A stretch of 27,899 nucleotides of DNA from a virus, in the IMG/VR virus record IMGVR_UViG_3300046474_000122, positions 1 through 27,899 of that record. One strand, given 5' to 3'. Shown here in pieces: positions 1 through 14,026 of the stretch; the stretch's first letter is position 1, and every line of letters starts with the position of its first letter. The notes beneath the pieces were generated by a model that saw nothing but the letters and a program-made list of their open reading frames with translations, was not told where the DNA came from and ran no database searches. Position numbers and translations under genes: made by a program.

Positions 1-61
1 GTGCGCGGCCCCGGAGCGAACCTTCCTATGGCATCTGGTGAGCATTGACCCGCATTTTGAT
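1..61. other. edge region downstream of imuA, no assignable gene
   Basis: This stretch follows the imuA stop codon. ImuB would be expected next on the minus strand. The first minus-strand ATG (55-53) reaches a stop after nine codons. The frame opening at 45 is open to the edge but does not resemble an ImuB N-terminus. An AGGAAGG motif (27-21, minus strand) might be a ribosome binding site for a start near or beyond the edge. Nothing firmer can be said. Confidence 0.4.
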
Positions 62-793
62 TTACCGGGTCAGCTCAGCCAGCCGATCTTGGGTAACCAA
101 TGGCGCACGCTCCGGCGCCACCTGACGATGCCTCTGAGGAATAAACATCGAGACCGACATAGGCAGGAACAAAGGCTCATCCCGCTGCGGTCCCTGACGC
201 TTCACAAACCCGATCTCGATGCCGCCAGGCGCTGGCCGCACACTCAACCGTAGAGGCGCTGGTGATGCGTCCTGCTCGGCTGTCAGCGGGCGGAAGTTGA
301 AGAATAGCGTTTCTCCCTGCTGCGCGGCGAGGTGCAGGCGCCTCAAGCTCTCGGCTCGCACGGGCTGCTGCCTCGCGTTGGAGCTCGACGTTTGCCCCGG
401 CCAGAACAGTAATGCGCCACAGCTACCGCTGCGAAGCACCTGCTCGGCAGCCCATAGCGCGTCTGCGGTGCGTTCCGAGCGTATCCACAGGACCGACTCC
501 AGAGGCAAGCCAAGCGCAGCCAGGGACAGCGCTTGCGGAGCGTGCGGCGGCTGCAGTAGCACGACCTTGCGCGCCGCCACCTTTGCCAATGCAGGAGCGA
601 CCAGCCGCATCTCCCCTATCCCGGGCTGCTGCACCAATAGGTCGACAAGCGTACCTACAGGCCAGCCGCCGCCCGGCAATTGGTTCGATAGCGCCGGATG
701 ACCAGTATCGATGCACTGCGTCCGGCTGCGCCCTAGCTGAGATGCGCGCCAGAGTGACGGATGAAGCGCCTCAAGCTCGTTTGCGTTCGTCAT
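62..793 (-). CDS. imuA: ImuA-type translesion synthesis accessory protein (SulA/RecA-like)
   Basis: The 243-residue product resembles ImuA, a RecA-fold relative that works with ImuB and the DnaE2 polymerase in SOS-induced error-prone translesion synthesis. Visible family features are the PGGGWPVGTLVDLL stretch (about residues 40-53), a degenerate nucleotide-binding loop (QQPGIGEMRL), the ARKVVLLQPPHAPQ strand and loop, and LFFNFRP near residue 165. The length is normal for the family. The ATG lies 18 bases from a perfect LexA box, so SOS control is very likely. It is the only gene here that looks chromosomal rather than phage-borne. ImuB is not visible in the remaining 61 bases, so the usual imuA-imuB-dnaE2 order cannot be confirmed. 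Confidence 0.82.
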   Translation of the reverse strand: MTNANELEALHPSLWRASQLGRSRTQCIDTGHPALSNQLPGGGWPVGTLVDLLVQQPGIGEMRLVAPALAKVAARKVVLLQPPHAPQALSLAALGLPLESVLWIRSERTADALWAAEQVLRSGSCGALLFWPGQTSSSNARQQPVRAESLRRLHLAAQQGETLFFNFRPLTAEQDASPAPLRLSVRPAPGGIEIGFVKRQGPQRDEPLFLPMSVSMFIPQRHRQVAPERAPLVTQDRLAELTR

Positions 794-810
794 GTTGTGT
801 TTGCAAAATA

Positions 811-826
811 CTGTATGTTCGTACAG
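811..826. promoter_or_regulatory. LexA (SOS) box
   Basis: The sequence CTGTATGTTCGTACAG matches the CTGT-N8-ACAG LexA operator exactly. It sits 18 bases upstream of imuA (minus strand) and 59 bases upstream of the plus-strand ORF at 885. On the minus strand a TTGTCA -35-like element and a TACAGT -10-like element about 18 bases apart overlap the box, as expected for LexA repression of imuA. On the plus strand TTGCAA (801-806) and weaker -10 candidates around 824-830 also flank it, so control of both divergent genes is possible. Confidence 0.88.
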
Positions 827-884
827 TATAGCGTGACAAAACAGCCATGTCGAAATACTAACGGTCTAACGAGTTGGGGGAGTT

Positions 885-1193
885 ATGGCAGATGAAGGAA
901 TTCTTGAGGATCTGGATGCGGCGGACGACGCGGCGAGAGAGATTGTCCCGCGGGTGGTGATGCGCTATCGGGAATTAGGCGTACTCACCTGGGCGCTCAT
1001 GCACAAGATTGAGGGCGAAGTGCTAGACGCATTAGACGCGACTGGCGTGCATCCGAGAGCGGCGCTCAGCATGATCCGGTCGTCGCCAGCGTTTAGGTAT
1101 CCACAGGATGATCGTCCGGCGTCATTTGGCGGTGCGTCCGCTATGCCGGCGATCTTCCTTCAGATTGAGCGGGCGTGGAATCGGGTTCACTAG
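885..1193 (+). CDS. unrecognised 102-residue protein at the prophage-host junction
   Basis: I do not recognise this family. The protein is acidic at the N-terminus (MADEGILEDLDAADDAARE) and mostly predicted helical, with no signal peptide or membrane segment. A GGGGGAG stretch at 876-882 could serve as a ribosome binding site, although it lies close to the ATG. It is one of only two plus-strand genes supported here. Its TAG stop overlaps the stop of the convergent gene at 1190 within one CTAG palindrome, a tight fit that suggests it belongs to the phage block. The LexA box 59 bases upstream raises the possibility of SOS induction. Either a phage accessory gene or a host gene is possible. Confidence 0.55.
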   Translation: MADEGILEDLDAADDAAREIVPRVVMRYRELGVLTWALMHKIEGEVLDALDATGVHPRAALSMIRSSPAFRYPQDDRPASFGGASAMPAIFLQIERAWNRVH

Positions 1194-1690
1194 TCATTCT
1201 GCGGCGCGTCGGCGATCGTATAATGTTTCGGCGATTTCTCGGCGTGCATCGCTTGCAAGCGCGCCACATGCGGTGTGAGTTCCGTTACAGCACGCCGGTA
1301 GCCATTTGGGAAGTCGCGGTCGTCGATCAGCTTGTCAGCGTATTTGGCGCGCACCAAGATAGCCAGGCAAGCGAGTGCGTGGCCCAGGTGCGGGATACCG
1401 CTGTCAGGATCGGCTTCTTCGCCCACGAACCATGCGTTGAGGTGTCGCTTTGCAGCGTCGTAGTAAATGCTGGCTCGCACGTCCGTAGCCGCGAAGTTTC
1501 CCCTCCCATACTTTCCCGCCCCGTCCAGCAGTCCGATCGCGCCAAGTGCTGTCGCCTCTTCTGGCCAGAGGTGCATCGGGATCTTGGACGAGCCAATGCT
1601 GTCCTTCGGGTTCGGTTTTTTGGTGGCGGTGCCAGTCGGCCCGAAAGTCAGCGCGTCATGCTCGTCAGCGAGCGGATCGATAGTACTCAT
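1190..1690 (-). CDS. phage dATP/dGTP diphosphohydrolase-like protein (DUF5664, MazG/MazZ-like)
   Basis: This 166-residue protein matches the DUF5664 (dGTP_diPhyd_N) family, MazG-like all-alpha nucleotide pyrophosphohydrolases of phages. Visible signatures are GAGKYGRGNF (57-66), the RH of KRHLNAW (82-83), EEADPDSG (91-98) and HLGHA (101-105). The acidic and histidine residues are plausible Mg-binding and substrate-binding positions. Such enzymes hydrolyse purine dNTPs to dNMP and pyrophosphate; the best-known member, MazZ, serves 2-aminoadenine DNA synthesis. It lies at the end of the phage operon, with a 4-base ATGA overlap with the preceding gene. The partner genes purZ and datZ are not in this window, so a Z-genome role is not supported; nucleotide-pool control is the safer reading. 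Confidence 0.72.
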   Translation of the reverse strand: MSTIDPLADEHDALTFGPTGTATKKPNPKDSIGSSKIPMHLWPEEATALGAIGLLDGAGKYGRGNFAATDVRASIYYDAAKRHLNAWFVGEEADPDSGIPHLGHALACLAILVRAKYADKLIDDRDFPNGYRRAVTELTPHVARLQAMHAEKSPKHYTIADAPQND

Positions 1691-1941
1691 TTCTTAGTCA
1701 CCTTTGCATGTACCCACATCGAAGCCATTGCGCCCAAGCCGGAGCCGAGACCAATAGCCAAAACGATCCAGCCGTATCCGTTGCGTGCAGTCGTGGCGAT
1801 CACGTAGACCTCGCACGCCGCCATCGACATCGAGGTAGGCAAGACCCAGAGATATTGCTTGTTGACGACGTTTAGCTGCTGGAATGCTTTCAGGAAGATG
1901 AAGACAAAGGCGGTGAGGAACGCTAGCAGGTAGGTGCTCAT
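1687..1941 (-). CDS. small phage membrane protein, function unknown
   Basis: The 84-residue product has an N-terminal hydrophobic segment (residues 4-17), a second around 31-50 and a third (57-77) rich in glycine and alanine, so it is probably a three-pass inner-membrane protein. Its start overlaps the stop of the HTH-metallophosphoesterase gene and its stop overlaps the start of the nucleotide-hydrolase gene (both 4-base overlaps), so the three genes form a coupled unit. No family function is recognised. It lies apart from the endolysin, so a holin role is possible but not favoured. Confidence 0.6.
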   Translation of the reverse strand: MSTYLLAFLTAFVFIFLKAFQQLNVVNKQYLWVLPTSMSMAACEVYVIATTARNGYGWIVLAIGLGSGLGAMASMWVHAKVTKK

Positions 1942-3125
1942 GCCGCCTCCTTGAGCTGCCCCTTGATCATGTCAAAGCTAACCGTGATTCTGCCAACCTC
2001 GCCATAATCCCTGTGGTACGTGATCACCTTGGCGTCGCGGCCCGTGACCCAGCCACCGCGTGCCGCGTAGGCATCAGGTGCCGCCAGGGTGCGATGCTGC
2101 TCCACGATCATCAGGTTATTCTCCTTGACGTCGACGTGGTGCAGGTGTCCGGTGTGAGCGTAGGCATACTTGGTGCGGCCGAACATTTCCCTGAACTGCG
2201 CGGCGAAGACCTCGGACACGTTTGTCACCCTCCGTTTGTGCCCGTGGTGCGTAAAGATTGCGACCTTACCGAACTCGTAGGCGTTGTAAGGCGATGGGCT
2301 GGTGTCGACGGTTACCCGAGGATTATTCTCGTACAGGACGGCGATCCACTCGCGCAGCCAGACTTGGCTCACCGGGTCGTGGTTCGCGTCGGCCATGATG
2401 ATGTGCAGGCATTCATGCTTGGCGAGCAGCATTTCGATCACTCGTCGCAGCACGCGGATAGCCACCCTGACCAGCTTCGGAAAGCGCGTATCGGCATCCA
2501 GCAAGTGCTTGGAGGCGGGCGTAACAGCGTCGAAGCCATCCCAGTGCAGAAGGTCCGAAATTTGCGCCAGGACGGCTGTTTTCGCATTTGGCGACTGCGC
2601 GATGGCGCGCTCGAACCACGCGACCAATGTTTGCTCGGCGATGTCGATGTCCCAACTGGCTCCTGTCTCGGGCGCCCAACTTAGAGCCCCCATGTGGAAA
2701 TCGGTAATTACGAAACAGTTGAGTAAGTCGTCGTTACCGGACGGGCTAGTGTATTTCTGACGCGGCAGCCGCGGTAAATTCTCTGCCATTGCCGCGAACA
2801 CCTCGCGCATTAGCGTGGCCTGCTGCTCCTGATCGGGGCTTTGACGCTCCCATGTCCGCTCTACTTCTCCACCCGGGCCGCGCTGCACCGTGACCTTGCC
2901 CATGTTGAAGCCGGGTGCGGCGCCACTTTCGAAGTGCCCCGGCGCATACCCCCGCCGCGCCGCCGAAACCTTCAGTCGCTCGATAGACTGCTGCACACTG
3001 CTTTTCGACATGCCGAGTTCGCGCGCTGCGGCTCGCATGCTGCCTAGCCTGTTCGTGGCCTCGACAAACTGCGACTGGCGAGGGGTCGGGTCGAACTCAA
3101 GCAGCTTAGGGTCAATGATGGTCAT
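1938..3125 (-). CDS. phage HTH plus metallophosphoesterase fusion protein
   Basis: The 395-residue protein starts with a helix-turn-helix (about residues 18-50; GSMRAAARELGMSKSSVQQSI) followed by a linker and a calcineurin-like metallophosphoesterase core. Core motifs in order are D142-x-H144, SD191LLH194 (in place of the usual GDxxD), N248-H249-D250, the HHGH motif at 293-296, and G326-H-x-H329. All the main metal-binding positions are present except the second Asp of motif II, which is His. Similar proteins occur in many tailed phages, often misnamed oxidoreductase. The substrate is unknown; a DNA-targeted phosphoesterase is an inference from the HTH. The gene overlaps both neighbours by 4 bases. 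Confidence 0.72.
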   Translation of the reverse strand: MTIIDPKLLEFDPTPRQSQFVEATNRLGSMRAAARELGMSKSSVQQSIERLKVSAARRGYAPGHFESGAAPGFNMGKVTVQRGPGGEVERTWERQSPDQEQQATLMREVFAAMAENLPRLPRQKYTSPSGNDDLLNCFVITDFHMGALSWAPETGASWDIDIAEQTLVAWFERAIAQSPNAKTAVLAQISDLLHWDGFDAVTPASKHLLDADTRFPKLVRVAIRVLRRVIEMLLAKHECLHIIMADANHDPVSQVWLREWIAVLYENNPRVTVDTSPSPYNAYEFGKVAIFTHHGHKRRVTNVSEVFAAQFREMFGRTKYAYAHTGHLHHVDVKENNLMIVEQHRTLAAPDAYAARGGWVTGRDAKVITYHRDYGEVGRITVSFDMIKGQLKEAA

Positions 3126-3439
3126 TTGCTCTCCGGTGTACGAGGCCAGGCTTCAATCAAGGTGCGCTTTTCGCTGTGGAGCTTTTCATCTTTCGGCCGA
3201 CAGCCAGCCATTGCCGCCTCGAGCCCGGTCGAATAGACCTCCCATGCCGCCGAGTCCTGTAGGGCAATCTGAGCGGCGGCCTTGTCGCCCGGGTAGGCGC
3301 CGACGCCATAGCGATTAGTTGGCCGCATCGGCACATCACCGAGGCAGCCGACCGCGACCGGAACCTGCACGGTTTCCGGTGCCGGCCTGGTCGTGGCGCA
3401 GCCGGTCAGCAACAGTGAGCAGAGAATGAGCGCTCTCAT
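3122..3439 (-). CDS. Rz1-like outer-membrane spanin lipoprotein
   Basis: The 105-residue product begins with a short lipoprotein signal (MRALILCSLLLTGC) whose lipobox LLTGC puts the lipidated Cys at residue 14. A Pro-containing stretch follows (RPAPETVQVPV), as in Rz1 proteins. The o-spanin anchors in the outer membrane and pairs with the i-spanin to fuse the membranes at lysis. The ATG at 3439 is preferred because GGGGAG precedes it by 7 bases and it forms an ATGA overlap with the i-spanin stop; in-frame ATGs at 3445 and 3454 are alternatives. It is longer than classical Rz1, and overlaps the i-spanin gene end to start rather than being embedded in it. Confidence 0.72.
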   Translation of the reverse strand: MRALILCSLLLTGCATTRPAPETVQVPVAVGCLGDVPMRPTNRYGVGAYPGDKAAAQIALQDSAAWEVYSTGLEAAMAGCRPKDEKLHSEKRTLIEAWPRTPESK

Positions 3440-3807
3440 TGCCATGCTCCCCATGCCTCGCGCAGCACGCCGTCGCAGTTCGTGGCGTCACTACCGGCGA
3501 CTGCGGCCGCTCGCTTGTCGATGCCCTTGATGACGACCGCAGCGTGTTTCTCGGCCTCCTTGCGCAGCGAGTCGGCGTTCTGGGCAACTGCGCTGAGTGT
3601 CGCGATCGCCTGGTTCTGCTCGCGTACCTTGTCTAGCAGGGCGTCGTACTCCTGCTGTTTGGCGGCGAGCTCTTTCAGGTGGGCGCGTTCCAGCCTCCAT
3701 CCGTTGACCGTGGCGCCGGCAAGCGCCGACCCTATGATGACTGCTAGAGCGAAGAGGGCCCCGGCAAGGAGCCGATACGGCGATGGGATCAGGTCGATCA
3801 TGATCAT
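3436..3807 (-). CDS. Rz-like inner-membrane spanin
   Basis: The 123-residue protein has one N-terminal membrane segment (about residues 13-32, LLAGALFALAVIIGSALAGA) followed by a charged, helical, coiled-coil-like periplasmic part (about 35-105). This is the i-spanin layout. It lies directly after the endolysin and holin-like genes and directly before a lipoprotein gene, the standard lysis-cassette order. It overlaps both neighbours by 4 bases. The call rests on architecture and position rather than strong sequence similarity. Confidence 0.75.
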   Translation of the reverse strand: MIMIDLIPSPYRLLAGALFALAVIIGSALAGATVNGWRLERAHLKELAAKQQEYDALLDKVREQNQAIATLSAVAQNADSLRKEAEKHAAVVIKGIDKRAAAVAGSDATNCDGVLREAWGAWQ

Positions 3808-4076
3808 TGCCCCGGTGGGTTGCGCGGCGCGTCAGCCCGCATGAGAGACTTTGCGCCAACCGAGGCCGCAATCGTCCCGATGAACTCGATCATCTGCCGC
3901 ACGTATTCACCGAGCACGCCCATGTCGAGATTGATCTTGCCGGTCGCGACGCCAACAGAAGCGCCAAGGTGGTAGATGCCGACCATGACCGCCCCGAGGA
4001 TCCGGACCGGGCAAAGCGTGGCGTTATCGCCCTCGCTCATCATATGGGCGAAGATTTTGCGTATCCATTCCTTCAT
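3804..4076 (-). CDS. holin-like small membrane protein of the lysis cassette
   Basis: This 90-residue protein has two hydrophobic stretches (about residues 25-45, VRILGAVMVGIYHLGASVGVA, and 62-76, MIEFIGTIAASVGAK) and a charged N-terminus with MSEGDNATLCPVR, a pattern found in phage proteins next to endolysins. It starts 3 bases after the endolysin stop and overlaps the i-spanin start by 4 bases. A holin or antiholin role is inferred from size, hydrophobicity and position. The coiled-coil/TM protein at 4622-4882 is the competing candidate, and the two may act together. Confidence 0.55.
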   Translation of the reverse strand: MKEWIRKIFAHMMSEGDNATLCPVRILGAVMVGIYHLGASVGVATGKINLDMGVLGEYVRQMIEFIGTIAASVGAKSLMRADAPRNPPGQ

Positions 4077-4079
4077 GAT

Positions 4080-4622
4080 TTACCCTTTCAGAACACGTAG
4101 CGCGGCCGCATACAGATCGATCCGCTCCTGTAGCCCATTCGTACCGCCGTTGACCGCCCGGGTTACGCGCGCCTGGTCGCCGGTATCGGCAATCGCGTTG
4201 ATGCCGCGCGAAATCCAATACCAGCCAGCCGATCGACAGGCGTTGAGTGGCGTCTCCAGCAGCTCAGGGTTGTGCAGGAGTCGATCATCACCGAACAGGA
4301 ATTGGCTGCAGGCGCGGAAGTTATCTCTTCCTGTGATTTGCAACAGGCCCCTACCCTTGTACCTTTGGCCGTCGCCGTCCTTGTCTGTGGTGTTGCCGAG
4401 CTTTTCCGCAAGACGCCCGGTGTCGTAAGCCTCACCGCTGGCCAGCTCGAGCACGTAGCGCAACTGGCCCGACTCGACGCCGACTTGCGCCAGGAACGAA
4501 GCCCGTCTCTCAGGGGTGTTAATCCGGGCCTCGTCCATCGTGGCATTCAGACCATCGAGGTAGCGTGCAGCCCGGTTACGCCCATACGGGTAGATCCGCA
4601 CCAACTGTTCCAGAGTCAGCAT
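4080..4622 (-). CDS. endolysin, glycoside hydrolase family 19 (chitinase-like muramidase)
   Basis: The 180-residue protein is a compact single-domain GH19 endolysin that cuts the glycan strands of peptidoglycan to release virions. Visible signatures are FLAQVGVESGQL with the likely general acid Glu50, the SGEAYDTGR segment (62-70), and DGQRYKGRGLLQITGR, the conserved GRG-x-x-QxTG region. There is no signal peptide, so export must rely on a holin. The ATG at 4622 is chosen over an upstream in-frame start at 4709: it makes a 4-base overlap with the preceding gene's stop, and the extra Arg-rich N-terminus would lie wholly inside that gene. Confidence 0.88.
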   Translation of the reverse strand: MLTLEQLVRIYPYGRNRAARYLDGLNATMDEARINTPERRASFLAQVGVESGQLRYVLELASGEAYDTGRLAEKLGNTTDKDGDGQRYKGRGLLQITGRDNFRACSQFLFGDDRLLHNPELLETPLNACRSAGWYWISRGINAIADTGDQARVTRAVNGGTNGLQERIDLYAAALRVLKG

Positions 4623-4882
4623 CAACCCCTCCAGAAGTGTTGAGCCAGCCACGATAGGCCGGCGCCGACGCTTGCCATTGCGCCGCCCAGGATCATCATG
4701 GTTCGCCACCCGCCCCGTGCCTCGGAAAGAGTAAGCAGCACTTGATCGAGTTTCTCGGTCAGTTGCTGGTTACTCTCTTCAAGGCGCGCTGTGCTTGCGG
4801 ATAGATAGGTGACTTGAACTTCGAGCCGGGTAATGTCTAAGCGGGCCTGCACTAGCGCCTCGTTGTGTTGGTTGTCATTCAC
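4622..4882 (-). CDS. coiled-coil protein with C-terminal TM segment, holin/XhlA-like candidate
   Basis: The 86-residue product has a long amphipathic, coiled-coil-like region (about residues 8-57) and one C-terminal membrane segment (62-82, MMILGGAMASVGAGLSWLAQH). This layout recalls XhlA-type lysis accessory proteins. It starts with GTG and overlaps the endolysin start by 4 bases, so it probably opens the lysis cassette. A strong intrinsic terminator ends only 12 bases before its start, leaving no room for a separate promoter. Expression therefore needs read-through or antitermination. Confidence 0.6.
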   Translation of the reverse strand: MNDNQHNEALVQARLDITRLEVQVTYLSASTARLEESNQQLTEKLDQVLLTLSEARGGWRTMMILGGAMASVGAGLSWLAQHFWRG

Positions 4883-4893
4883 GGTTGGCCCGT

Positions 4894-4917
4894 AAAAAAG
4901 CCCGCTCGTGGCAGGCT
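4894..4917 (-). terminator. intrinsic terminator before the lysis cassette
   Basis: On the minus strand a 7-bp stem (AGCCTGC / GCGGGCT, with one G-U pair) and a 5-base loop are followed by a run of six T. The T run ends 12 bases before the GTG start at 4882. It lies after the stop of the 4957-5232 gene. Confidence 0.75.
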
Positions 4918-4956
4918 GGGTTGAGGGAATGTGGTTGCCGGTCGCCGCCGGCTAAA

Positions 4957-5232
4957 TCAATATTTGTCGCAGTGGCCGGGATCCACCCTGTCGAGAAGTC
5001 GACACAAGATGCAGGCCCAGCGTCTCCCCTCTTTCCGTACGCGCTGTGCTCTGGCGCTCATGTATTCGCTGTCATCGCCGCCAGTCGACGCGTTGCCGAC
5101 TCGATCAAAACCTTTGGCGATCGTCCAGGCGCGCGGAGAGCCAACGAGGATCGAGGCAAGCATCCAAGGCAAGGCGAGCGCCACGCACAGGACACAGACC
5201 AGCCAAATACCAAAGAGACGGACACGTGCCAT
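4957..5232 (-). CDS. conserved phage small membrane protein next to the lysis genes
   Basis: The 91-residue protein has one N-terminal membrane segment (about residues 4-30, with IWLVCVLCVALALPWML) and a soluble C-terminal part. The pattern SPRAWTIAKGFDRVGNASTGGDD, then a WACILCRLLDRVDPGHC end, is one I associate with Burkholderiales prophage proteins of unknown function. The ATG at 5232 is preceded by GAGGT at suitable spacing; an in-frame extension to 5310 would run through the upstream terminator hairpin and is rejected. It lies between two minus-strand terminators. A lysis or membrane role is a guess from position. Confidence 0.6.
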   Translation of the reverse strand: MARVRLFGIWLVCVLCVALALPWMLASILVGSPRAWTIAKGFDRVGNASTGGDDSEYMSARAQRVRKEGRRWACILCRLLDRVDPGHCDKY

Positions 5233-5248
5233 TGCGACCTCACAAAAG

Positions 5249-5272
5249 AAAAAAGCCCGCACATGGCGGGCT
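5249..5272 (-). terminator. intrinsic terminator between acyltransferase and late-gene side
   Basis: A perfect 7-bp stem (AGCCCGC / GCGGGCT) with loop ACATG (plus-strand reading) is followed on the minus strand by six T, then C and four more T. The main T run ends 17 bases before the ATG at 5232, and the GAGGT binding site lies between them. The orientation fits termination of leftward transcription. Confidence 0.8.
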
Positions 5273-5304
5273 GTTGTATTGACTGAAGCTGAATCGGATT
5301 TGAA

Positions 5305-5333
5305 TTGCAACGGATACCAAACAGGTTTATCTT
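5305..5333 (+). promoter_or_regulatory. candidate sigma70-like promoter for the acyltransferase
   Basis: TTGCAA (5305-5310) and TATCTT (5328-5333) are separated by exactly 17 bases and each matches the sigma70 consensus at four of six positions. The gene is transcribed against all its neighbours and needs its own promoter, but the match is modest. Confidence 0.3.
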
Positions 5334-5367
5334 CTGTCGAGTCAGCTAACGACCAATGGTGATCTCA

Positions 5368-6426
5368 ATGGCATACCTGTCTATCCTCGATGGAGTCAGA
5401 GCAGTTGCGGTTCTATTGGTCGTTGCGTGTCATTTGCTATCACGTCTATACGGCACTCTGGAACCGCCTGGTTACTCCTTAGCTACTGTCGGCCAGCTAG
5501 GTGTCGCAATCTTCTTCGTGCACACCGCCTTAGTATTGCTCGGGTCACTGGAACGCCATGGCTCAGCCACGATTCCGTTTTATGTGCGCAGGGTTTTTCG
5601 CATCTATCCGCTATCAATCACGGTCATACTGCTCATCGCGCTTTGGCGGCTGGCGGCGCATGCCCCACTGGAGGGCCGGAGACTTATCGGCAGCCTACTA
5701 CTGATGCAGAACCTGGTGGATGAGCAGCCCTATCTGGGTCAATTGTGGTCGCTCCCGTACGAGGTGCAGATGTACCTTTGCCTCCCGCTCCTCTACGCAA
5801 TCGTGAAGCGCACGCGGTGGCCACTCCTTGGGGTTGGGCTGGCGTACATCGTTCTTCTAATTATGGCCGTAGGCGTGAGCAATCTGGATCGTTTCCGCGT
5901 TTCAGGCGTAACCGCTCCGTTCCTTCAATACACGCCATGCTTCATGGCCGGGGTACTCGCGTACGCCCTTGCTGGCCGCATTCCTCAAGTGGTGAGACCG
6001 CTTTGGCTTGCCGTTTTCCTGGCAAGCTGCATTGCCTTCGGACCGATGCTAGTGAGTGCCGGGATGTCAGAAACACCTTTCTTATGGCTGGTCTGCCTAC
6101 TCCTTGGCTTCGCAATCCCCGCATGCCAAGAGATGACATGCAGACCGATCGCTACGGCTACAAAGACTGTCGCAACATACTCCTACGGCGTGTACCTCAC
6201 CCACATGTTTGCGCTTGCAGCTATCGACGGCTTAATGCCGGGGCCGCCTATTGTGCAGTGGGCAGCCATGCTGATTCTTCTCGCAGGGCTGCCGTACATC
6301 TGTTACCACGGCATCGAGAAACGCGGCGTTGCTCTTGGCGCGCGGCTCGTCGATCGCTACTCCCGGCCGCGTCAGCCAGCGGTTCTCGGTGTTACGGCTG
6401 CAAGCGATAACGCGACCCGACCTTAG
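5368..6426 (+). CDS. acyltransferase 3 family membrane protein (O-antigen/polysaccharide acylation), lysogenic conversion candidate
   Basis: The 352-residue polytopic membrane protein belongs to the acyltransferase-3 (OafA/YrhL-like) family, which transfers acetyl groups to surface polysaccharides. Visible are the N-terminal LDGVRAVAVLLVVACH block with the conserved His, FYVRRVFRIYPL, and YGVYLTHM near the C-terminus, with about ten hydrophobic segments. One oddity: the usual FFxxSGF loop reads FFVHTALVL. The start at 5368 has a GGTGAT motif just upstream; an in-frame ATG at 5356 lacks one. It lies on the opposite strand to the late genes, beside the tail fibre, the usual place for a moron expressed in the lysogen. 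The likely effect is to alter the host surface and block superinfection. Confidence 0.85.
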   Translation: MAYLSILDGVRAVAVLLVVACHLLSRLYGTLEPPGYSLATVGQLGVAIFFVHTALVLLGSLERHGSATIPFYVRRVFRIYPLSITVILLIALWRLAAHAPLEGRRLIGSLLLMQNLVDEQPYLGQLWSLPYEVQMYLCLPLLYAIVKRTRWPLLGVGLAYIVLLIMAVGVSNLDRFRVSGVTAPFLQYTPCFMAGVLAYALAGRIPQVVRPLWLAVFLASCIAFGPMLVSAGMSETPFLWLVCLLLGFAIPACQEMTCRPIATATKTVATYSYGVYLTHMFALAAIDGLMPGPPIVQWAAMLILLAGLPYICYHGIEKRGVALGARLVDRYSRPRQPAVLGVTAASDNATRP

Positions 6427-6470
6427 CGCATGGCCGCTGCTCCAGCCTGCTCTACAACTTAGATCGCGGA

Positions 6471-8657
6471 TCAAAGCCCTGCCGCATTGAGGAACGCATA
6501 CAGATCGGCCGCAAAAGCATTCGCTCCAGCTGCGTTCGGGTGATAGGCGTCGTAGGTGTACGCCTTCGCTGTGGCTTTCACATATGATCGACCATATACC
6601 CTGCGCCCATCGAAATAAGACCACCCGTAATCAGCGGCCATATTCTTCAATAGCTGGGCGAACTTGTCATAGGTGCCGTCAGTTGCGCCAACCGCGTTGT
6701 ACGGGTAGCCAACGCACAGGCATCCGTCAACCGTCGGTGCCAGGGCGGCTACCAGATCTTCCATGGAGGCATAATAGGAGCTAGCCCCCGTCAGTCGAGC
6801 GTCATTGATCGTGCAGTAGATAGCCGCGTAATCTGGCGCGATTGCCAGCGTTCCAGGCTTGCCGTTCCACGGATTACCTGTCGCATCGAGGTCAGCGGCG
6901 ACCGCGGCGCAATAGCCTCCCTGCAGGAACACGGGCGTTGATGCGCCGCTAAACGTTTCGATACCAGCGACGTAGCCGGAGCCTGTCGCTCCGACACCGA
7001 TGCTGATGGTATGAACACCCGACGTAACGCTGTACTCGGCGAACGTGAACCCGGCCGCCCCGTTCTGGTTGAGCGTTCCAACAAGAACGTTGTCTACATA
7101 GACGCCAACCGAAGAATTTAGGCCAGACAGGGTCGGGTACCAGACGCGGAATCGATTAAATGCCCCAGTAGGTGCGAACGAAAGCCGCCCCGAAGATCCG
7201 CCGCTGGCAAGAAGGAAACGCCCGCCGAAGATTCCAGAGACGCTAGAGTCGGGAGCCCATCCGCTGCCGAGAGTTATACGGTCGTCGTAGGCCCCCAGCG
7301 CAACCGATGGCGCGAACGTAACGTTTTGCTCGCCAAAAAAGGAGTCCGTCTGGTAGCCGCCGAGGACGGCGAATTTTCTTGCGAGCGATGTTTTTACTGC
7401 ACCTGTCAGTCCCCGTGTACTAGTCCCGGAACCTTCACCTGCAACGTTGCTGTCACCGATGAATGCAAAGCGCGCCGGGTTCGCACTGCCCCGCGCCTTG
7501 GCGGCCTGCCATTTTGCGAAACCACCGGTAAATGCAGTGATGTCGGATGAAGATGCCGTTGAGCTTGATGCTGGCGTCGACCAACTTCCATCTTCCCGCA
7601 GGAACCTGGTGGCGCCTGCCGTGGAGCCGGGATCTGGCACCGCGCCGCCGGCGTGACCAGTTCCCGATGCGCCCATTACAGGCAGATCAGCGGCGACAAT
7701 CGCGCGCATGGTCGGCGTAGCGGCTGCGCCCGATACCGGTCCGGCGAGGAACGTGTTGGCCGTCTGCGTCTTGAGAGTGAACGTCAGGGTACCACTGCCC
7801 GTCACCGGATTGCCTGATACGGTATAGAGCACTCCGGGCACTGAGAGATCGACGCTGGTTACGGTGCCGCCGGTTCCGGTCGGATAACTAAGCGCAGTCC
7901 ACGAGCCAATCGAGGTCGGGTCCGACCCGGTAATGACGTAGACCTTGCTGTTATCCGACCGTGCGCACCAGTCGCCCTTTTCGCCGGTCAGGGCAAGCAT
8001 GGCGGTCTGGTTCGCCACCGTGCCGAGGAAGTCGATGATTGCGAGGTTCGGCAACTGAGACGTTGGCAGCTTGCCTCCGCTATCCAGGCTTGCGTAACCG
8101 TTTGCGGCGCCCTTCTCCGCCTCCTTCTGGTATTGCGAGTGCGGGTCCGAAGCTGCCTCGTGCGCTGTAATCGCAGCCGATGCCGCGCCGGAAGTTTCGG
8201 CCCCGACGTCCGACGCGGTAAGCGTGACAGCGCCCGATCCATCTGGCGTCTTGGTATTGACGCTTTTTACCGTGCCTGAGCCGCCACTACCGCCACCAAG
8301 TACGCGCAGGTCGGCGTGACTGCTGACCGTCGACCCGACGGTAACGATCTGGTGCAGCGCCGTTCGGCCCGCCGTGAAGCCCGTTTGGTTGACAGACACG
8401 GCGCCAGTCGCCGGGTCGGCCTCGACGTAGTTGGTAGCCGATGCCGCCAGTGTCACTTCGCCGTTGGCGATCTGCGTCGGCGTGCCGGAGATCGACACGG
8501 TGCCGCCGTAGTAGCCAAACGTCACGCCTGCGGAAGTTACGGCGCGCCGGCCGTACAGCGCAGCCGGCGACAATGCGTCTGCCAGGGCGTTGACCGTTAC
8601 CTCTTTGTTGGCCTGTGAAGGGCTGACCAAGTCCAAGTGGGTAGTGCTATTTGCCAT
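6471..8657 (-). CDS. tail fibre with C-terminal SGNH hydrolase (esterase) domain
   Basis: The 728-residue protein starts with a phage fibre N-terminus (MANSTTHLDLVSPSQANKEV). Low-complexity Ser/Gly/Thr shaft segments follow, including a DPHSQYQKEAEKG region and a PDPGSTAGATRFLREDGSWSTP segment typical of fibres. From about residue 395 it becomes an SGNH hydrolase: GDS with Ser403, TIND with Asn618, and DAYH with Asp703 and His706. Between the first blocks lies a beta-rich insert (about 450-560). The likely role is receptor binding plus de-esterification, for example removing acetyl groups from a surface glycan. A terminator hairpin precedes the gene by 12 bases. The convergent acyltransferase gene ends 44 bases from its stop. 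Confidence 0.83.
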   Translation of the reverse strand: MANSTTHLDLVSPSQANKEVTVNALADALSPAALYGRRAVTSAGVTFGYYGGTVSISGTPTQIANGEVTLAASATNYVEADPATGAVSVNQTGFTAGRTALHQIVTVGSTVSSHADLRVLGGGSGGSGTVKSVNTKTPDGSGAVTLTASDVGAETSGAASAAITAHEAASDPHSQYQKEAEKGAANGYASLDSGGKLPTSQLPNLAIIDFLGTVANQTAMLALTGEKGDWCARSDNSKVYVITGSDPTSIGSWTALSYPTGTGGTVTSVDLSVPGVLYTVSGNPVTGSGTLTFTLKTQTANTFLAGPVSGAAATPTMRAIVAADLPVMGASGTGHAGGAVPDPGSTAGATRFLREDGSWSTPASSSTASSSDITAFTGGFAKWQAAKARGSANPARFAFIGDSNVAGEGSGTSTRGLTGAVKTSLARKFAVLGGYQTDSFFGEQNVTFAPSVALGAYDDRITLGSGWAPDSSVSGIFGGRFLLASGGSSGRLSFAPTGAFNRFRVWYPTLSGLNSSVGVYVDNVLVGTLNQNGAAGFTFAEYSVTSGVHTISIGVGATGSGYVAGIETFSGASTPVFLQGGYCAAVAADLDATGNPWNGKPGTLAIAPDYAAIYCTINDARLTGASSYYASMEDLVAALAPTVDGCLCVGYPYNAVGATDGTYDKFAQLLKNMAADYGWSYFDGRRVYGRSYVKATAKAYTYDAYHPNAAGANAFAADLYAFLNAAGL

Positions 8658-8668
8658 GGAATTCCCAT

Positions 8669-8693
8669 AAAAAAAGCCACACGAAGGTGGCTT
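8669..8693 (-). terminator. intrinsic terminator between tail hub and tail fibre
   Basis: On the minus strand a stem formed by GCCAC and GTGGC, extended by two A-T pairs, with a 6-base loop, is followed by seven T. The T run ends 12 bases before the fibre ATG at 8657. Confidence 0.78.
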
Positions 8694-8714
8694 GTGTGGC
8701 TGTCAGTCGTTCGT

Positions 8715-11603
8715 CTACGAGATCGTGATCGTGTGGCCGAGATCGTTGTAGCCGGTGGCGGTTTCCCAGGTGCCGGTATTCAGCAGTTGGATCGCATATT
8801 CCGGGCGCGAAGCCAGACCCGACGCCGGGTCAGGCAGCCAGAGCAGAAGCCGATACGTTCCCGAAGCGATACTTGCCGGGATCGTCACGGCTTCGTTGAC
8901 CGTGGCGGTCGTACCCGGCAGCCAGTTCCGCAGATCCGCGGCCAGAGAAACGACCGTCACCGCGTTCGTGCTCGTATTGCGCAGTACCAGTTTCACGGTG
9001 CGTTGCGAGGTCGGAGCCGCGAAGCCGTCGTTCGTGATCTTGAAGTTGACGGTGATCGCGCTGCCCTTCGTGCCGGTCGTCGGGTAAGTACCCGTGGTCA
9101 GGCTCAAGCGGTAGCCGAGGCGCTTGTTGAAGATCGCGTAGTGGCCGCTGTTCTTCCATGACAGGATGACGGACTCGTTATAGCCAGCGTTGCAGAACGT
9201 CCAGTGGAACCGGGCCATTTCGCTGAGCGCCGTTGCACCCGAGGAGCGCGGCTCGTTGTAGGTACAGGTCTCGCCGCCCATCGGCACATACTTCGTGTCG
9301 GCGGACAGGAAGGCTTCCTCGCTTGTCTGCTGCCAGTACGTGCCCGCGTCGGTCGAGCCCGACAGGAAGCAGTCGTTGAAGTGACCGACCCTGCCCACGG
9401 CATTGGCGCTATCGCGGTCAGAAGCGGTCGCCGGGGTGTTGCCGGTGTTGTACATCTTGATCCACGGCTGACGCACCTGAACCCAGCGATCGGACGGCAT
9501 GACGGCCAGCGCCTTGTCGACCACTGCCTTGCGGAGATTCCTGTTGGCGGTCGACAGGTTCGGCGGCCACGAGTCCGAGCCGAAGTTCGTCGAGCCTTGG
9601 AACTCGCCCCACTGGCCCACCCAGCCGCACTGCATTCCCATGATGACGTCCTTGTTCGCGGCGAGGTACGGGGCGAGCTGGTCCATGTGGGACTGGATTT
9701 GGGTCAGCGAAGCGTCGACCGTATCCGTCTTGGTGTAGGCGAAGCGCAGGACGGTCTTCATCCCGTTGGAGCGGATCGAGTTCAGGTTCGCCTGGAACGC
9801 ATTCAGGAACGTCGAATCCAGCGCCGCATTTTTGTATGCAGTCAGGTAGGCCTGATACAGCACGATGCTCATGTTCTGAGCTTTGTACGGATTCAGGTTG
9901 CCACTCGAGAAATCGCCGCCATGCAGAACGTGAACGTAGAAGCCCCGCTCCGGATTCGTGACCGCTGCGGTGTTCGTCGTGTAGTTCACGGTCGCGGTAG
10001 ATCCGCCGCCGCCCGACGATGTGGCATCTGTCCGGAAGCTGGGCCCCGTGACTACAGCCGAATCAAGGCCCACCGCGCTGCGGTGCAGGTAACTCGGGTA
10101 GTAGACGGTGTCAGGGGTAAGGCCAGTTATGCTGACGTTCTGGACACCGGTCGCACTTACCGCTTGGGTCTTGCCTGCCTTGACGGCAGTATCGGCTGGG
10201 TTCGCATTCGTCGAGAACAGGGCGTACAGGGTTCCGGTTGCGGTATCGGTGGATACCGTGCCGGTGGCAGTGCTGGGGCCGGTCTTAGTGCTGGTCGGTG
10301 TGGTCAAGATCGGAGCAGCCGGGGTTCCGCCGCCAGCAAGCGCGTCCGTCCGGAAGCTCGCGCTGGTCACAACCATGGATTCCAGTCCGGAGCTATTGCG
10401 GTGCAGGAAGTGTAGATAGTACGTTGTGTCCGGAGTGAGGCCGGTAACGTTTACGTATTGCGGACCAGTAGCCGTGACGCCTTGTGACAGACCGGCTTTG
10501 ACTTGGTCTTTAGTTGCGGTCGAACTAGTAGATGGCAGAGCGAACAGAGTGCCGCCAATTTGGTTCGTCGAGACGCTGCCCGAAGCCGAGGTGGAGCCGG
10601 TTTGCGAGCCAGCTGGGCTGGTCAGCACCGGAGCGACCGGACCGCTGCTAGAGCCTCCGCCAGAGCCGCCGCCACTTGCGATCCTGCCGGTGTGTCGGAG
10701 CGCGCCCCTGCCGGGGTATCCACGTCCTACCGTCGACGACAGCTGGTAGACCTGGATATAGACTGGATCACCCGAAGCGATGCCGTCTGCAGCCAGATCC
10801 GCGGCACTGTAGATGGCCGTCGGCGACGTCAAGCCGCTGATCGTGCGCTTGACCGTCGAGAATGTGGCATCCATGATCTCCACCTCGTATGCCTCACTTG
10901 CCTCGCCGAGCGGTACTTCCAGACCGTCCTTCCATTCGCCGGAAATCCGGGTGCGGCGAGTCCAGTTGATCGTCAGGTTCCCGTCCGCATCGCTACCGCC
11001 GCCGATCAGGACCGGGGCATAGGGCTTGAGTCGTGCGCCAAGGTTCGTGAACGACTGAGGAGTAGCGCTAGACAGAAATGCGCCCGAGGTCACCATCTTG
11101 TACAGGCGCGTCTTGCCGATGTCCGATGTCACCTGCGGGATGGGCTTCACGGTCGCCGGAGTAAGCAGCACGAAGCGGTCGCCGGTGGCGTGAGTGTTCA
11201 TGGCCCACTCGGTGCCGCGCCTGCCACGCAGCAGACCGCGCAGCGTGTACAGGCCAGCCCCGTTCAGGACCGCGTCACGGAAATAGACGACCTCGTCGCC
11301 GATCAAGGCCGCCTGCGCCCCTTCCAGCAGGCCCTCATACGGCACCGATGCCAGCGTGCCGTACGTGAGCTTGACGACCACCGAGTTGATCTCGTCGACC
11401 GTGTTGCCGCCTTCGTAGTCGCCCAGCGCACCAAGCGTGCGCCCCATCGTCGCGCGATTGGTGAAAGTGGTCACGACCTGATACGACGACCCACTATCGC
11501 TTGACTGGTACATCGTCGCGCCAGGCCAGGACTTCGCCGCGCTCGTTGCCACAGCATAGAAGCCCGGGTCATTGTCGTCGTCCCTGAGTGCGTTGATGTT
11601 CAT
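8715..11603 (-). CDS. tail hub C-terminal protein: rcc01698-like region, two repeats and DUF4874/DUF4832 glycosidase-like domain
   Basis: The 962-residue protein has three parts. Residues 1-310 resemble the C-terminal region of the gene-transfer-agent hub (rcc01698-like), with ALRDDDNDPGFY and LYTLRGLLRGRRGTEW. A Gly/Ser linker (about 310-320) leads into two tandem ~100-residue beta-sandwich-like repeats. From about residue 533 the sequence matches DUF4874 (TNPERGFYVH, GMKTVLRFAY, GWVGQWGEF) and then DUF4832 (about 700-960, ending in TGTWETATGYNDLG). Those domains are usually found in secreted TIM-barrel-like proteins related to glycoside hydrolases. The ATG overlaps the stop of the first hub half (TGATG), indicating coupled translation. 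Placed at the tail tip, the C-terminus may be a receptor-binding or glycan-degrading tip; activity is inference. Confidence 0.78.
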   Translation of the reverse strand: MNINALRDDDNDPGFYAVATSAAKSWPGATMYQSSDSGSSYQVVTTFTNRATMGRTLGALGDYEGGNTVDEINSVVVKLTYGTLASVPYEGLLEGAQAALIGDEVVYFRDAVLNGAGLYTLRGLLRGRRGTEWAMNTHATGDRFVLLTPATVKPIPQVTSDIGKTRLYKMVTSGAFLSSATPQSFTNLGARLKPYAPVLIGGGSDADGNLTINWTRRTRISGEWKDGLEVPLGEASEAYEVEIMDATFSTVKRTISGLTSPTAIYSAADLAADGIASGDPVYIQVYQLSSTVGRGYPGRGALRHTGRIASGGGSGGGSSSGPVAPVLTSPAGSQTGSTSASGSVSTNQIGGTLFALPSTSSTATKDQVKAGLSQGVTATGPQYVNVTGLTPDTTYYLHFLHRNSSGLESMVVTSASFRTDALAGGGTPAAPILTTPTSTKTGPSTATGTVSTDTATGTLYALFSTNANPADTAVKAGKTQAVSATGVQNVSITGLTPDTVYYPSYLHRSAVGLDSAVVTGPSFRTDATSSGGGGSTATVNYTTNTAAVTNPERGFYVHVLHGGDFSSGNLNPYKAQNMSIVLYQAYLTAYKNAALDSTFLNAFQANLNSIRSNGMKTVLRFAYTKTDTVDASLTQIQSHMDQLAPYLAANKDVIMGMQCGWVGQWGEFQGSTNFGSDSWPPNLSTANRNLRKAVVDKALAVMPSDRWVQVRQPWIKMYNTGNTPATASDRDSANAVGRVGHFNDCFLSGSTDAGTYWQQTSEEAFLSADTKYVPMGGETCTYNEPRSSGATALSEMARFHWTFCNAGYNESVILSWKNSGHYAIFNKRLGYRLSLTTGTYPTTGTKGSAITVNFKITNDGFAAPTSQRTVKLVLRNTSTNAVTVVSLAADLRNWLPGTTATVNEAVTIPASIASGTYRLLLWLPDPASGLASRPEYAIQLLNTGTWETATGYNDLGHTITIS
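10020..10640 (-). repeat. two tandem ~100-residue coding repeats in the tail hub
   Basis: Both copies share the order P-x-L-T-x-P, TG-x-V-ST, GTL-ALxST, VKAG-x-x-Q-x-V-x-ATG, V-x-x-TGLTPDT-YY, LHR-x-x-GL-S-VVT, SFRTDA, and each ends before a glycine-rich linker. The unit resembles fibronectin-III-like spacers of tail proteins. Boundaries are approximate. Confidence 0.75.
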
Positions 11604-14026
11604 CAGAATAGTTCCATCAGGGTTGCGCTTGGCTGCGATACGGTGCCGTCGTTCGGCGGGGTTTCGGTGACCACCACGTGCGGGACGTACATGGACTCAT
11701 CGGCTAACGCTTCGCACTCGATCACGCCGCGGGGCGTTGTGGTGGCGCTCGTGATGCGCATGACGTGCCCTTTGACCTGAGTGCGGTCGGTCGGCTCTAG
11801 CTTTGAGTGTTTTCTCGATACCGAAAATTTGTACGAGATCCTCTCGGCCCACTCGGTATGAAGGTTGTACTCGGCAACTTCCTTGGCCTTCGCATCGGTT
11901 AGGACCAATGGCGCCTCGATGGTCCTTTCGTCACCACTCGAACCAATTAGCCTTTTTGCCTGCTTCGTCGCTGTGTTGTAGTCGTCGGCGGCGAGCAGGT
12001 ATTTCACTGTTACAGCCCGCGACAACTCGTGCTCCATCCGACGCACGCTTTGCAACGGGTCCGGCGACTCACTTCCAAAGTCGTGCGCCGCTAGATCCTC
12101 GTCGTCGATCACGGTAATCGGACCGGTGCCGCGCTTGACGTACTTGACCACCCCTTGCGACTCGACACCGTCAAAGCCGTAGATCGGCCTCAACGTGTCG
12201 ATTGCCGCGCGTGCCGTCGTTTGGCGGGCGATGCAATAACCGTCAACGATATCCGACGAAAGCTGAGAGACATCGCATCTAGGCTCGCCTGCACGCGCGT
12301 GCAGGTCGGCGACGACATCGGCAAGGGACACTCCATTCGGGCTCGTCCTGCCTGCACCGCCAACGAAGATCTTCATGATGTCGCCGCTGCCAGTGAGGAC
12401 ACCCAGCCAGTCCGGCTCGTTCGGCAGCAGGAACACGCGCATGTTGGCACCGACGGGAATCGGCTCTTCGTTCTCGTACGCTTGCAGCACACCGCCATTG
12501 AACAGGATGCAGGGCTCAGGCTGCCAGCCATCCGGGCTGAGCTTTTCCGGGTCGTACGCGCGGATATTCAGGCCATCGACCACGTAGAACATGTCCTGAT
12601 CCGGGCTGTAGACAACCTGCCCATCTCCTACGCCTGAATGCGGGAACACGCCTTCAATAAATCCATCCGGGCCGGCATAGGAGCCTGATGCAAAGTCCAC
12701 AAGGATCCTGCGATTCGTGTCGTAGGCGTCCCAGAAGATATTCGGCTTGCTTGCGAAATTGGAGTTTTGCGTGGAAAAGGATGCAGCGCCCACGCTGCCC
12801 CACATCGGCAACAGATCGCCACCGGCACGTTCGCCAGTCGAGCCCCACGTGACGGGCGGCTGAAGGCCAAAGAACCTGTGAATGACTGTATCAACGTCCT
12901 CGATCCCGGAAACCCCAACGGATGAACCACTAATGTTGTTGTTGTACGCGAGATACCTGAACTCTTTTCGATCCTCAGACTCGGACCACACCACATCCGC
13001 AACTGGCACTTCTATTTGCGCGCAGGATGACTCGTCGAAATTACAGACGATGCCGTGCAGCGCCGGAACCTTGGAGAAGGTCCAGTTGACCAAGTCAACA
13101 ATGGTTACCTGTGTGCCGCCGTACTCGACAACTCGAACTTCGCCGTAGTTATTCCAAGCCATTCTAGGGGCGCCACCATCAAGACCGATAGGCGGCCCCG
13201 CCTCACCGGTAGCGGGATTGACACGATCCAGATACCAATGCCCAAGCTGGTCGGCATAGACGTAGTAGACCCAGCCAGTGATGGCGTCGGAGAATACGCG
13301 GCCATACTGGGAAACCGATACCGGAACGTCTGCAATCTTGACCGGCGCCGGATCGTAGATGGAATAGGTGTACCCGCCAACGTTAAAGGTGGACTTAGGC
13401 ACAGGGCAGCTATCGGCGCTGGATGCGCCCACTTCAACTGTTAGGAACGGAAGTGTATTGCCGTCCTTGGACGTGTCGAAGCCCTCGATCATGATGTACG
13501 CGTAGCCGCGGTAGGCCGGCACATTGCCGACGCCCTCGTACTGCTCCATCAGCGGATCGGGCTCTTGATCGTCGGTCCCAAGGTAGACGCGCAGCGAGCC
13601 GCTTTCCATCGTCGCGCCGTCCCAGATGAGGCGCTTGGCGGGGCCTGCCCAGATGCGCCCGATGCCAGAGATCGGCCCTTCGCACAGCAGAACCGCGAAC
13701 GATCCCAGGTAGGTATAATTTACCGTCGTCTGGCTCGGGCCACCCTTGCCGCCCTGCTCGGTCTCGTTTGCGACTTCCTTGAGATCGGCCGCCCAGATCA
13801 CATTCCCTTGAATTGGGAACGTGCCGTAGATGATCGGGATGGGCGCGCCGTACTCGGACTTTTGGACGCGCAGATCATCCAGGCGCGGGCCGTACTGCGT
13901 GGGGAGCGTATCGAACGACGAGCCAACAGCCCCGCCCACAGCCACGCCAATCGCGGCTCCAACCGGGCCGGCAACGATTCCGCCGATGATCTGGCCAGCA
14001 ACCTGTCCGATTATCTGACCGCTCAT
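11603..14026 (-). CDS. tail hub N-terminal protein (GTA g15/megatron-like, phage tail tip)
   Basis: The 807-residue protein opens with a Gly/Ala-rich hydrophobic stretch (GQIIGQVAGQIIGGIVAGPVG) followed by QYGPRLDDLRVQKSEYGAPIPIIYGTFPIQGNVIWA, the signature start of long tail-tip proteins that also occurs in lambda J-like and GTA hubs. Later features are LGSFAVLLCEGPI and a Phage-tail_3-like region in the C-terminal third. It ends ...ATLMELF and the next protein resumes with INALRDDDNDPGFY. In fused relatives these segments are expected to be adjacent, so the two genes together equal one hub. It forms the tail tip beneath the distal-tail and peptidase proteins. It overlaps the peptidase gene by 4 bases. 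Confidence 0.8.
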   Translation of the reverse strand: MSGQIIGQVAGQIIGGIVAGPVGAAIGVAVGGAVGSSFDTLPTQYGPRLDDLRVQKSEYGAPIPIIYGTFPIQGNVIWAADLKEVANETEQGGKGGPSQTTVNYTYLGSFAVLLCEGPISGIGRIWAGPAKRLIWDGATMESGSLRVYLGTDDQEPDPLMEQYEGVGNVPAYRGYAYIMIEGFDTSKDGNTLPFLTVEVGASSADSCPVPKSTFNVGGYTYSIYDPAPVKIADVPVSVSQYGRVFSDAITGWVYYVYADQLGHWYLDRVNPATGEAGPPIGLDGGAPRMAWNNYGEVRVVEYGGTQVTIVDLVNWTFSKVPALHGIVCNFDESSCAQIEVPVADVVWSESEDRKEFRYLAYNNNISGSSVGVSGIEDVDTVIHRFFGLQPPVTWGSTGERAGGDLLPMWGSVGAASFSTQNSNFASKPNIFWDAYDTNRRILVDFASGSYAGPDGFIEGVFPHSGVGDGQVVYSPDQDMFYVVDGLNIRAYDPEKLSPDGWQPEPCILFNGGVLQAYENEEPIPVGANMRVFLLPNEPDWLGVLTGSGDIMKIFVGGAGRTSPNGVSLADVVADLHARAGEPRCDVSQLSSDIVDGYCIARQTTARAAIDTLRPIYGFDGVESQGVVKYVKRGTGPITVIDDEDLAAHDFGSESPDPLQSVRRMEHELSRAVTVKYLLAADDYNTATKQAKRLIGSSGDERTIEAPLVLTDAKAKEVAEYNLHTEWAERISYKFSVSRKHSKLEPTDRTQVKGHVMRITSATTTPRGVIECEALADESMYVPHVVVTETPPNDGTVSQPSATLMELF

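Follow-up and report, generated by a model that had tools for sequence, protein, structure and literature searches.

A putative lysogenic-conversion acyltransferase gene convergent with a tail fibre bearing an esterase-like SGNH tip in an uncultivated phage

Gene content of the locus

The stretch of DNA analysed here, which we refer to as the window, is a 27.9-kb piece (27,899 nucleotides) of a tailed-phage genome, held as IMG/VR virus record IMGVR_UViG_3300046474_000122. Its late genes lie on the minus strand in the order tape measure, tail genes, a megatron gene in two parts, and then a tail fibre gene (Table 1). Adjoining the fibre gene, on the plus strand, is a gene for an acyltransferase-3 (AT3) membrane protein, on the far side of which the minus-strand lysis genes resume. 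The AT3 and fibre genes converge on a gap of 44 bases, exactly as the original prediction had described. A DNA search with the whole window gave no match among known phages.

Table 1. Features of the AT3-fibre locus and its surroundings; positions are those of the window
Feature	Position	Strand	Basis
Endolysin, start of the lysis genes beyond AT3	4080..4709	-	PHROG 181 endolysin, E 9e-61
Intrinsic terminator for the late strand, close upstream of AT3	5254..5272	-	terminator search
Stand-alone AT3 membrane protein, 352 aa, putative surface-glycan O-acetyltransferase	5368..6426	+	PF01757, PHROG 3333, motifs
Gap between the AT3 and fibre stop codons, 44 bases	6427..6470		genes convergent
Tail fibre, 728 aa	6471..8657	-	ORF; position after the megatron genes; N-terminus and gene order common to kin
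Fibre C-terminal SGNH module (last 365 residues; Ser403, Gly581, Asn618, Asp703, His706)	6471..7568	-	PF13472, alignment A7, fold model
Codons of Ser403; Asn618; Asp703; His706	7449..7451; 6804..6806; 6549..6551; 6540..6542	-	
Beta-sandwich, carbohydrate-binding-module-like, inserted between SGNH blocks I and II	6951..7214	-	predicted strands, model residues 119-206; CBM35/CBM36 matches
Conserved N-terminal module of the fibre (120 aa), presumed to serve for attachment	8298..8657	-	alignment A3
Intrinsic terminator for the late strand, separating the megatron gene from the fibre gene	8674..8693	-	terminator search
Tail megatron protein, second half, C-terminal DUF4874-DUF4832	8715..11603	-	PHROG 4271, E 3e-79
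Tail megatron protein, first half	11603..14026	-	PHROG 4271, E 2e-105

The original prediction spoke of a lysogen. Across the window itself no integrase gene was found, but another contig from this phage (IMGVR_UViG_3300046520_000099), which reproduces window positions 1-12582 save for two mismatches, carries a tyrosine integrase gene about 0.5 kb past the window's left end. The phage is thus probably temperate, and to speak of a lysogen is reasonable on the strength of that overlapping contig.

The second half of the megatron matches PF16116 (E 1.7e-64) and PF16173 (E 1.1e-37), and has a partial match, below the cut-off, to NF048004. The two megatron ORFs overlap by one base, at window position 11603; the same arrangement is found in L012, L018 and L020, and a single ORF in L016, L023 and L024. 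The full 962-residue C-terminal half recurs with 87% identity in L018, and its counterpart in L012 and L019 is only about 300-340 residues long.

The acyltransferase

The longest ORF for the AT3 protein runs from 5356 to 6426 on the plus strand (356 aa), but we prefer the start at 5368 because related AT3 proteins begin MKDSPNLDLLRA, at an equal distance from the conserved arginine. The product exceeds the Pfam Acyl_transf_3 cut-off by a wide margin (PF01757, E 1.3e-32, 113.6 bits against 31), and its best PHROG fit is PHROG 3333, 'O-acetyltransferase' (E 3e-43). Two motifs are required for AT3 function (PMC9558356), and both are present: the first helix has R/K-x10-H, as RAVAVLLVVACH, and the first cytoplasmic loop has RxxR, as RVFR. 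On this evidence the gene is a membrane O-acyltransferase gene, as had been proposed. Its product probably adds acyl groups to host surface sugars, and the group transferred is probably acetyl. A search of 299 genomes from the Stenotrophomonas family found no relatives of this AT3.

The window's AT3 has no fused SGNH domain. Whether a stand-alone AT3 may have a separate SGNH partner is a question raised in a review of the family (PMC9558356), and one other phage locus touches on it. At L126:3703-5827 a phage AT3 gene is convergent with a gene for a tailspike-like protein, and is preceded on its own strand by a gene for an SGNH protein of 228 aa with what looks like a signal peptide; this SGNH protein may be secreted and serve as the separate partner of a stand-alone AT3.

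The fibre and its SGNH tip

The N-terminal 120 residues of the fibre are 53-80% identical to those of seven kin, and this module is present in at least 80 viral loci; none was found in 398 genomes of the order to which Stenotrophomonas belongs.

At the other end of the protein, the match to Lipase_GDSL_2 lies barely above the cut-off (PF13472, E 7.5e-8, 33.5 bits against 32.9). The full Ser-Asn-Asp-His set that the original prediction had seen there is nevertheless borne out by alignment A7, which shows Ser403, Gly581 (block II), Asn618 (block III), Asp703 and His706 unchanged across seven homologues with identities as low as 30%. Asp703 stands three residues ahead of His706, forming an Asp-x-x-His pair. 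Against known structures, a profile built from the seven SGNH members matches acetylxylan esterases (E ~4e-8), and a tblastn search of known phages with the fibre tip gave no match.

An AlphaFold model of the tip, of moderate confidence (pTM 0.72, pLDDT 65), replaced an earlier fold model with a pLDDT of 51. Its best match in the PDB is the Campylobacter jejuni peptidoglycan O-acetylesterase Ape1 (TM 0.54, E 2e-9), followed by esterases of carbohydrate esterase family 2 (CE2). Together, model and match support an alpha/beta/alpha SGNH fold, and in a structure search the inserted beta-sandwich resembles carbohydrate-binding modules. The likeness to Ape1 and CE2 covers nearly the whole module and takes in both the SGNH fold and a carbohydrate-binding-type beta-sandwich; Ape1 differs, however, in being a cellular enzyme with peptidoglycan as its substrate, and it is only 12% identical. 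The viral fold matches are tail fibres and phage hydrolases, with the tail fibre of Klebsiella phage Sin4 first. Judged by sequence conservation and the model, then, the tip has the look of a polysaccharide O-acetylesterase that is still intact.

SGNH tips of this kind have precedents. The tail protein gp63.1 of Escherichia coli phage G7C, which does not appear among the structural matches listed for the window's tip, is an SGNH protein that reportedly deacetylates the host glycan on entry. In gp63.1 and in fibres of Klebsiella prophages the receptor-binding tip is an SGNH esterase domain, as is predicted here, and two of the Klebsiella prophage fibres are active esterases (PMC13123978).

Linkage of the two genes in related phages

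The neighbourhood was searched from both directions, from the fibre N-terminus and from AT3. On the fibre side, 50 viral records had sufficient downstream sequence and six of them carry AT3. All six have an AT3 gene within 2.2 kb past the fibre ORF, convergent with it in five. One of these, G597, also has a second, partial AT3 (G597:C1:17-613), at a contig end and outside the slot. From the AT3 side, 13 loci at 38% identity or more represent ten distinct phages, the window's own included. In every one of the ten, the same fibre family adjoins the AT3 gene in convergent orientation, at -39 to about +1760 bases, and in all 13 loci a megatron gene lies behind the fibre. These ten phages share ancestry, and their agreement does not amount to ten independent events. 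Two of the AT3 genes in the slot, from the fibre-kin set, belong to other AT3 branches (20-25% identity), implying that the slot has been filled more than once. In L049 (12968-14005) the same convergent post-fibre slot holds a gene for a PAP2-family membrane protein, another possible envelope modifier.

Chance adjacency of AT3 and fibre can be dismissed, given the placement in all six of the fibre kin that carry AT3 and in all ten AT3 phages. The linkage is confirmed as tight and recurrent, and it is an already known kind of layout. The linkage that had been anticipated thus exists between AT3 and fibre, but it does not extend to the esterase. Neither the 50 fibre kin nor the other nine close AT3 phages gave a single PF13472 match. 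None of the other fibres is like the window's SGNH tip, although several of them are like one another. The reverse search, for AT3 near six SGNH relatives, included five that were checked as whole records or genomes. A profile search found no AT3 in the viral records L004, L008, L107 and L108, of which L004 (7.6 kb) and L108 (4.7 kb) are short fragments, and the genome holding L009 gave no match to the window's AT3; L009 and L010 both derive from one Stenotrophomonas geniculata assembly. The neighbours of these SGNH relatives include a DNA adenine methylase gene (L004, L010) and META-domain genes (L009). AT3 and the SGNH fibre as a conserved unit across related phages is therefore not supported.

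Comparison of pairwise divergences among the ten AT3 phages bears on how this arrangement arose. In Mantel tests, divergence in AT3 is correlated with divergence in the megatron C-terminus (r 0.72, p 0.0002), and no such correlation is seen for the fibre N-terminus (r 0.16, p 0.19). AT3 thus tracks a tail protein and not the fibre, as would be expected if fibres have been swapped past a resident AT3; with ten phages, the pattern is suggestive of an AT3 that travels with the tail module while fibres are exchanged.

Transcription signals

No terminator was found in the gap between AT3 and fibre, and the next on the late strand is the one just upstream of the AT3 start, so that late fibre transcripts should run antisense through the whole of AT3. 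Under strict rules, a terminator so placed was seen in only two of the ten phages, the window's own and L119, against 0.15 expected; looser rules add L117 and L118. The terminator between the megatron and fibre genes may mean that expression of the fibre needs antitermination. For AT3 no sigma-70-like promoter was found, and its expression in the lysogen is thus an assumption.

Discussion

The layout at this locus is best understood beside known phages. In Shigella phage Sf6, as here, a stand-alone AT3 gene (oac) is convergent with the receptor-binding gene, the two being 33 bases apart, although the Sf6 tailspike is an endorhamnosidase rather than an esterase and Sf6 Oac is only 23% identical to the window's AT3. 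Acetylation by Sf6 confers superinfection immunity, and blocks the endorhamnosidase of the phage's own tailspike (PMC9558356). Escherichia phage phiV10 likewise has its oac convergent with a tail fibre gene, 12 bases away and with lysis genes just beyond, and this oac is annotated for superinfection immunity; the phiV10 fibre, however, has no SGNH Pfam match, and its Oac is 13% identical. In both Sf6 and phiV10 the O-antigen is the glycan that Oac acetylates, to the exclusion of superinfecting phage. In Pseudomonas phage D3 an AT3-type O-antigen acetylase gene directly follows a tail gene, within a seroconversion cluster. Here the differences are greater, since the D3 gene is on the same strand, encodes a longer protein and is accompanied by iap and wzy, and the tail protein is pectin-lyase-like. 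The window's AT3 gene has the placement of the Oac class, beside the receptor-binding tail gene of a phage for which the integrase indicates a temperate life style. By likeness to Sf6, phiV10 and D3, its product most likely alters the surface glycan of the lysogen.

Why, then, should an acyltransferase and an apparent esterase be neighbours? The explanation that we favour, and hold to be a probable one, is that a lysogenic-conversion AT3 stands beside a separately acquired, polysaccharide-deacetylating fibre, where we infer the activities, the target glycan and the exclusion. AT3 would be a conversion gene sited where the fibre gene meets the lysis genes, in a phage that is probably temperate. 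Its product would add an acyl group, probably acetyl, to a surface polysaccharide of the lysogen, and the altered glycan would change the receptor for competing phages, giving seroconversion or superinfection exclusion in the manner of the Sf6 and phiV10 Oac proteins. On the virion, the SGNH tip with its carbohydrate-binding-like sandwich would recognise and trim acetylated host glycan on entry, this tip having presumably arrived independently, through fibre exchange. During lytic growth, the antisense transcription from the fibre gene would probably help to shut AT3 off. The two genes would be neighbours because the lineage keeps AT3 in the slot beside the fibre.

The original prediction had gone further, to a matched pair in which the acetyl group put on by AT3 would be the very one that the fibre tip takes off, the host being marked against others while the phage keeps its own key. 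Such a pairing has some appeal, in that this one phage has adjacent genes predicted for the two activities and, for Klebsiella, prophage acetylation and deacetylation have already been proposed to interact (PMC13123978). The relatives speak against it, however: the SGNH tip is missing from the fibre kin and from the other close AT3 phages alike, AT3 was not found near the six SGNH relatives searched, and AT3 divergence follows the tail protein instead of the fibre N-terminus. A fibre that strips the mark would, moreover, defeat self-exclusion and bind acetylated debris, so that a pair acting on one group is sensible only as a lock against rivals with a private key. We regard the matched pair as unlikely, and it is just as doubtful that the AT3 lineage has gained an SGNH tip that opens exactly its own modification. 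A similarly low probability attaches to a tip that only binds glycan, without cleavage, with AT3 acting on an unrelated glycan. The domain does lie at the receptor-binding end, it does carry the inserted sandwich, and its Pfam score is marginal; against this, the retention of Ser, Gly, Asn, Asp and His in all seven homologues implies selection for catalysis.

Less probable still is a passenger role for AT3, in which it would change the fitness of the host, through envelope robustness or resistance to grazing for instance, and play no part against phages. AT3 proteins modify many different envelope glycans (PMC9558356), just six of the 50 fibre kin carry one, and the PAP2-family gene of L049 fills the same slot, all of which would suit a passenger. 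The recurrent siting of AT3 against a receptor-binding gene, which is also seen in phages whose seroconversion has been demonstrated, argues otherwise. We also reject, as improbable in the extreme, the idea that AT3 has its transferase partner in the SGNH domain, the two jointly acylating a glycan. Both domains are indeed needed in AT3-SGNH fusions (PMC9558356), but here the SGNH domain forms the end of a structural protein, a fibre whose N-terminus is conserved among phages, it is encoded on the opposite strand in the late gene cluster, and related AT3 phages lack it.

Lysogenic conversion by AT3, beside a fibre of separate origin, therefore remains the reading that we prefer. It extends the fibre-linked seroconversion slot of the Sf6 and phiV10 type to an uncultivated phage lineage, and the ten phages suggest that within this slot the acyltransferase is retained along with the tail module as fibres are replaced. 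That AT3 would stay as fibres come and go points to genes directed against other phages rather than matched to any one fibre tip. Should the pair in this phage nevertheless prove to act on a single acetyl group, it would offer a clean test of whether a phage can lock out its rivals while keeping its own key.
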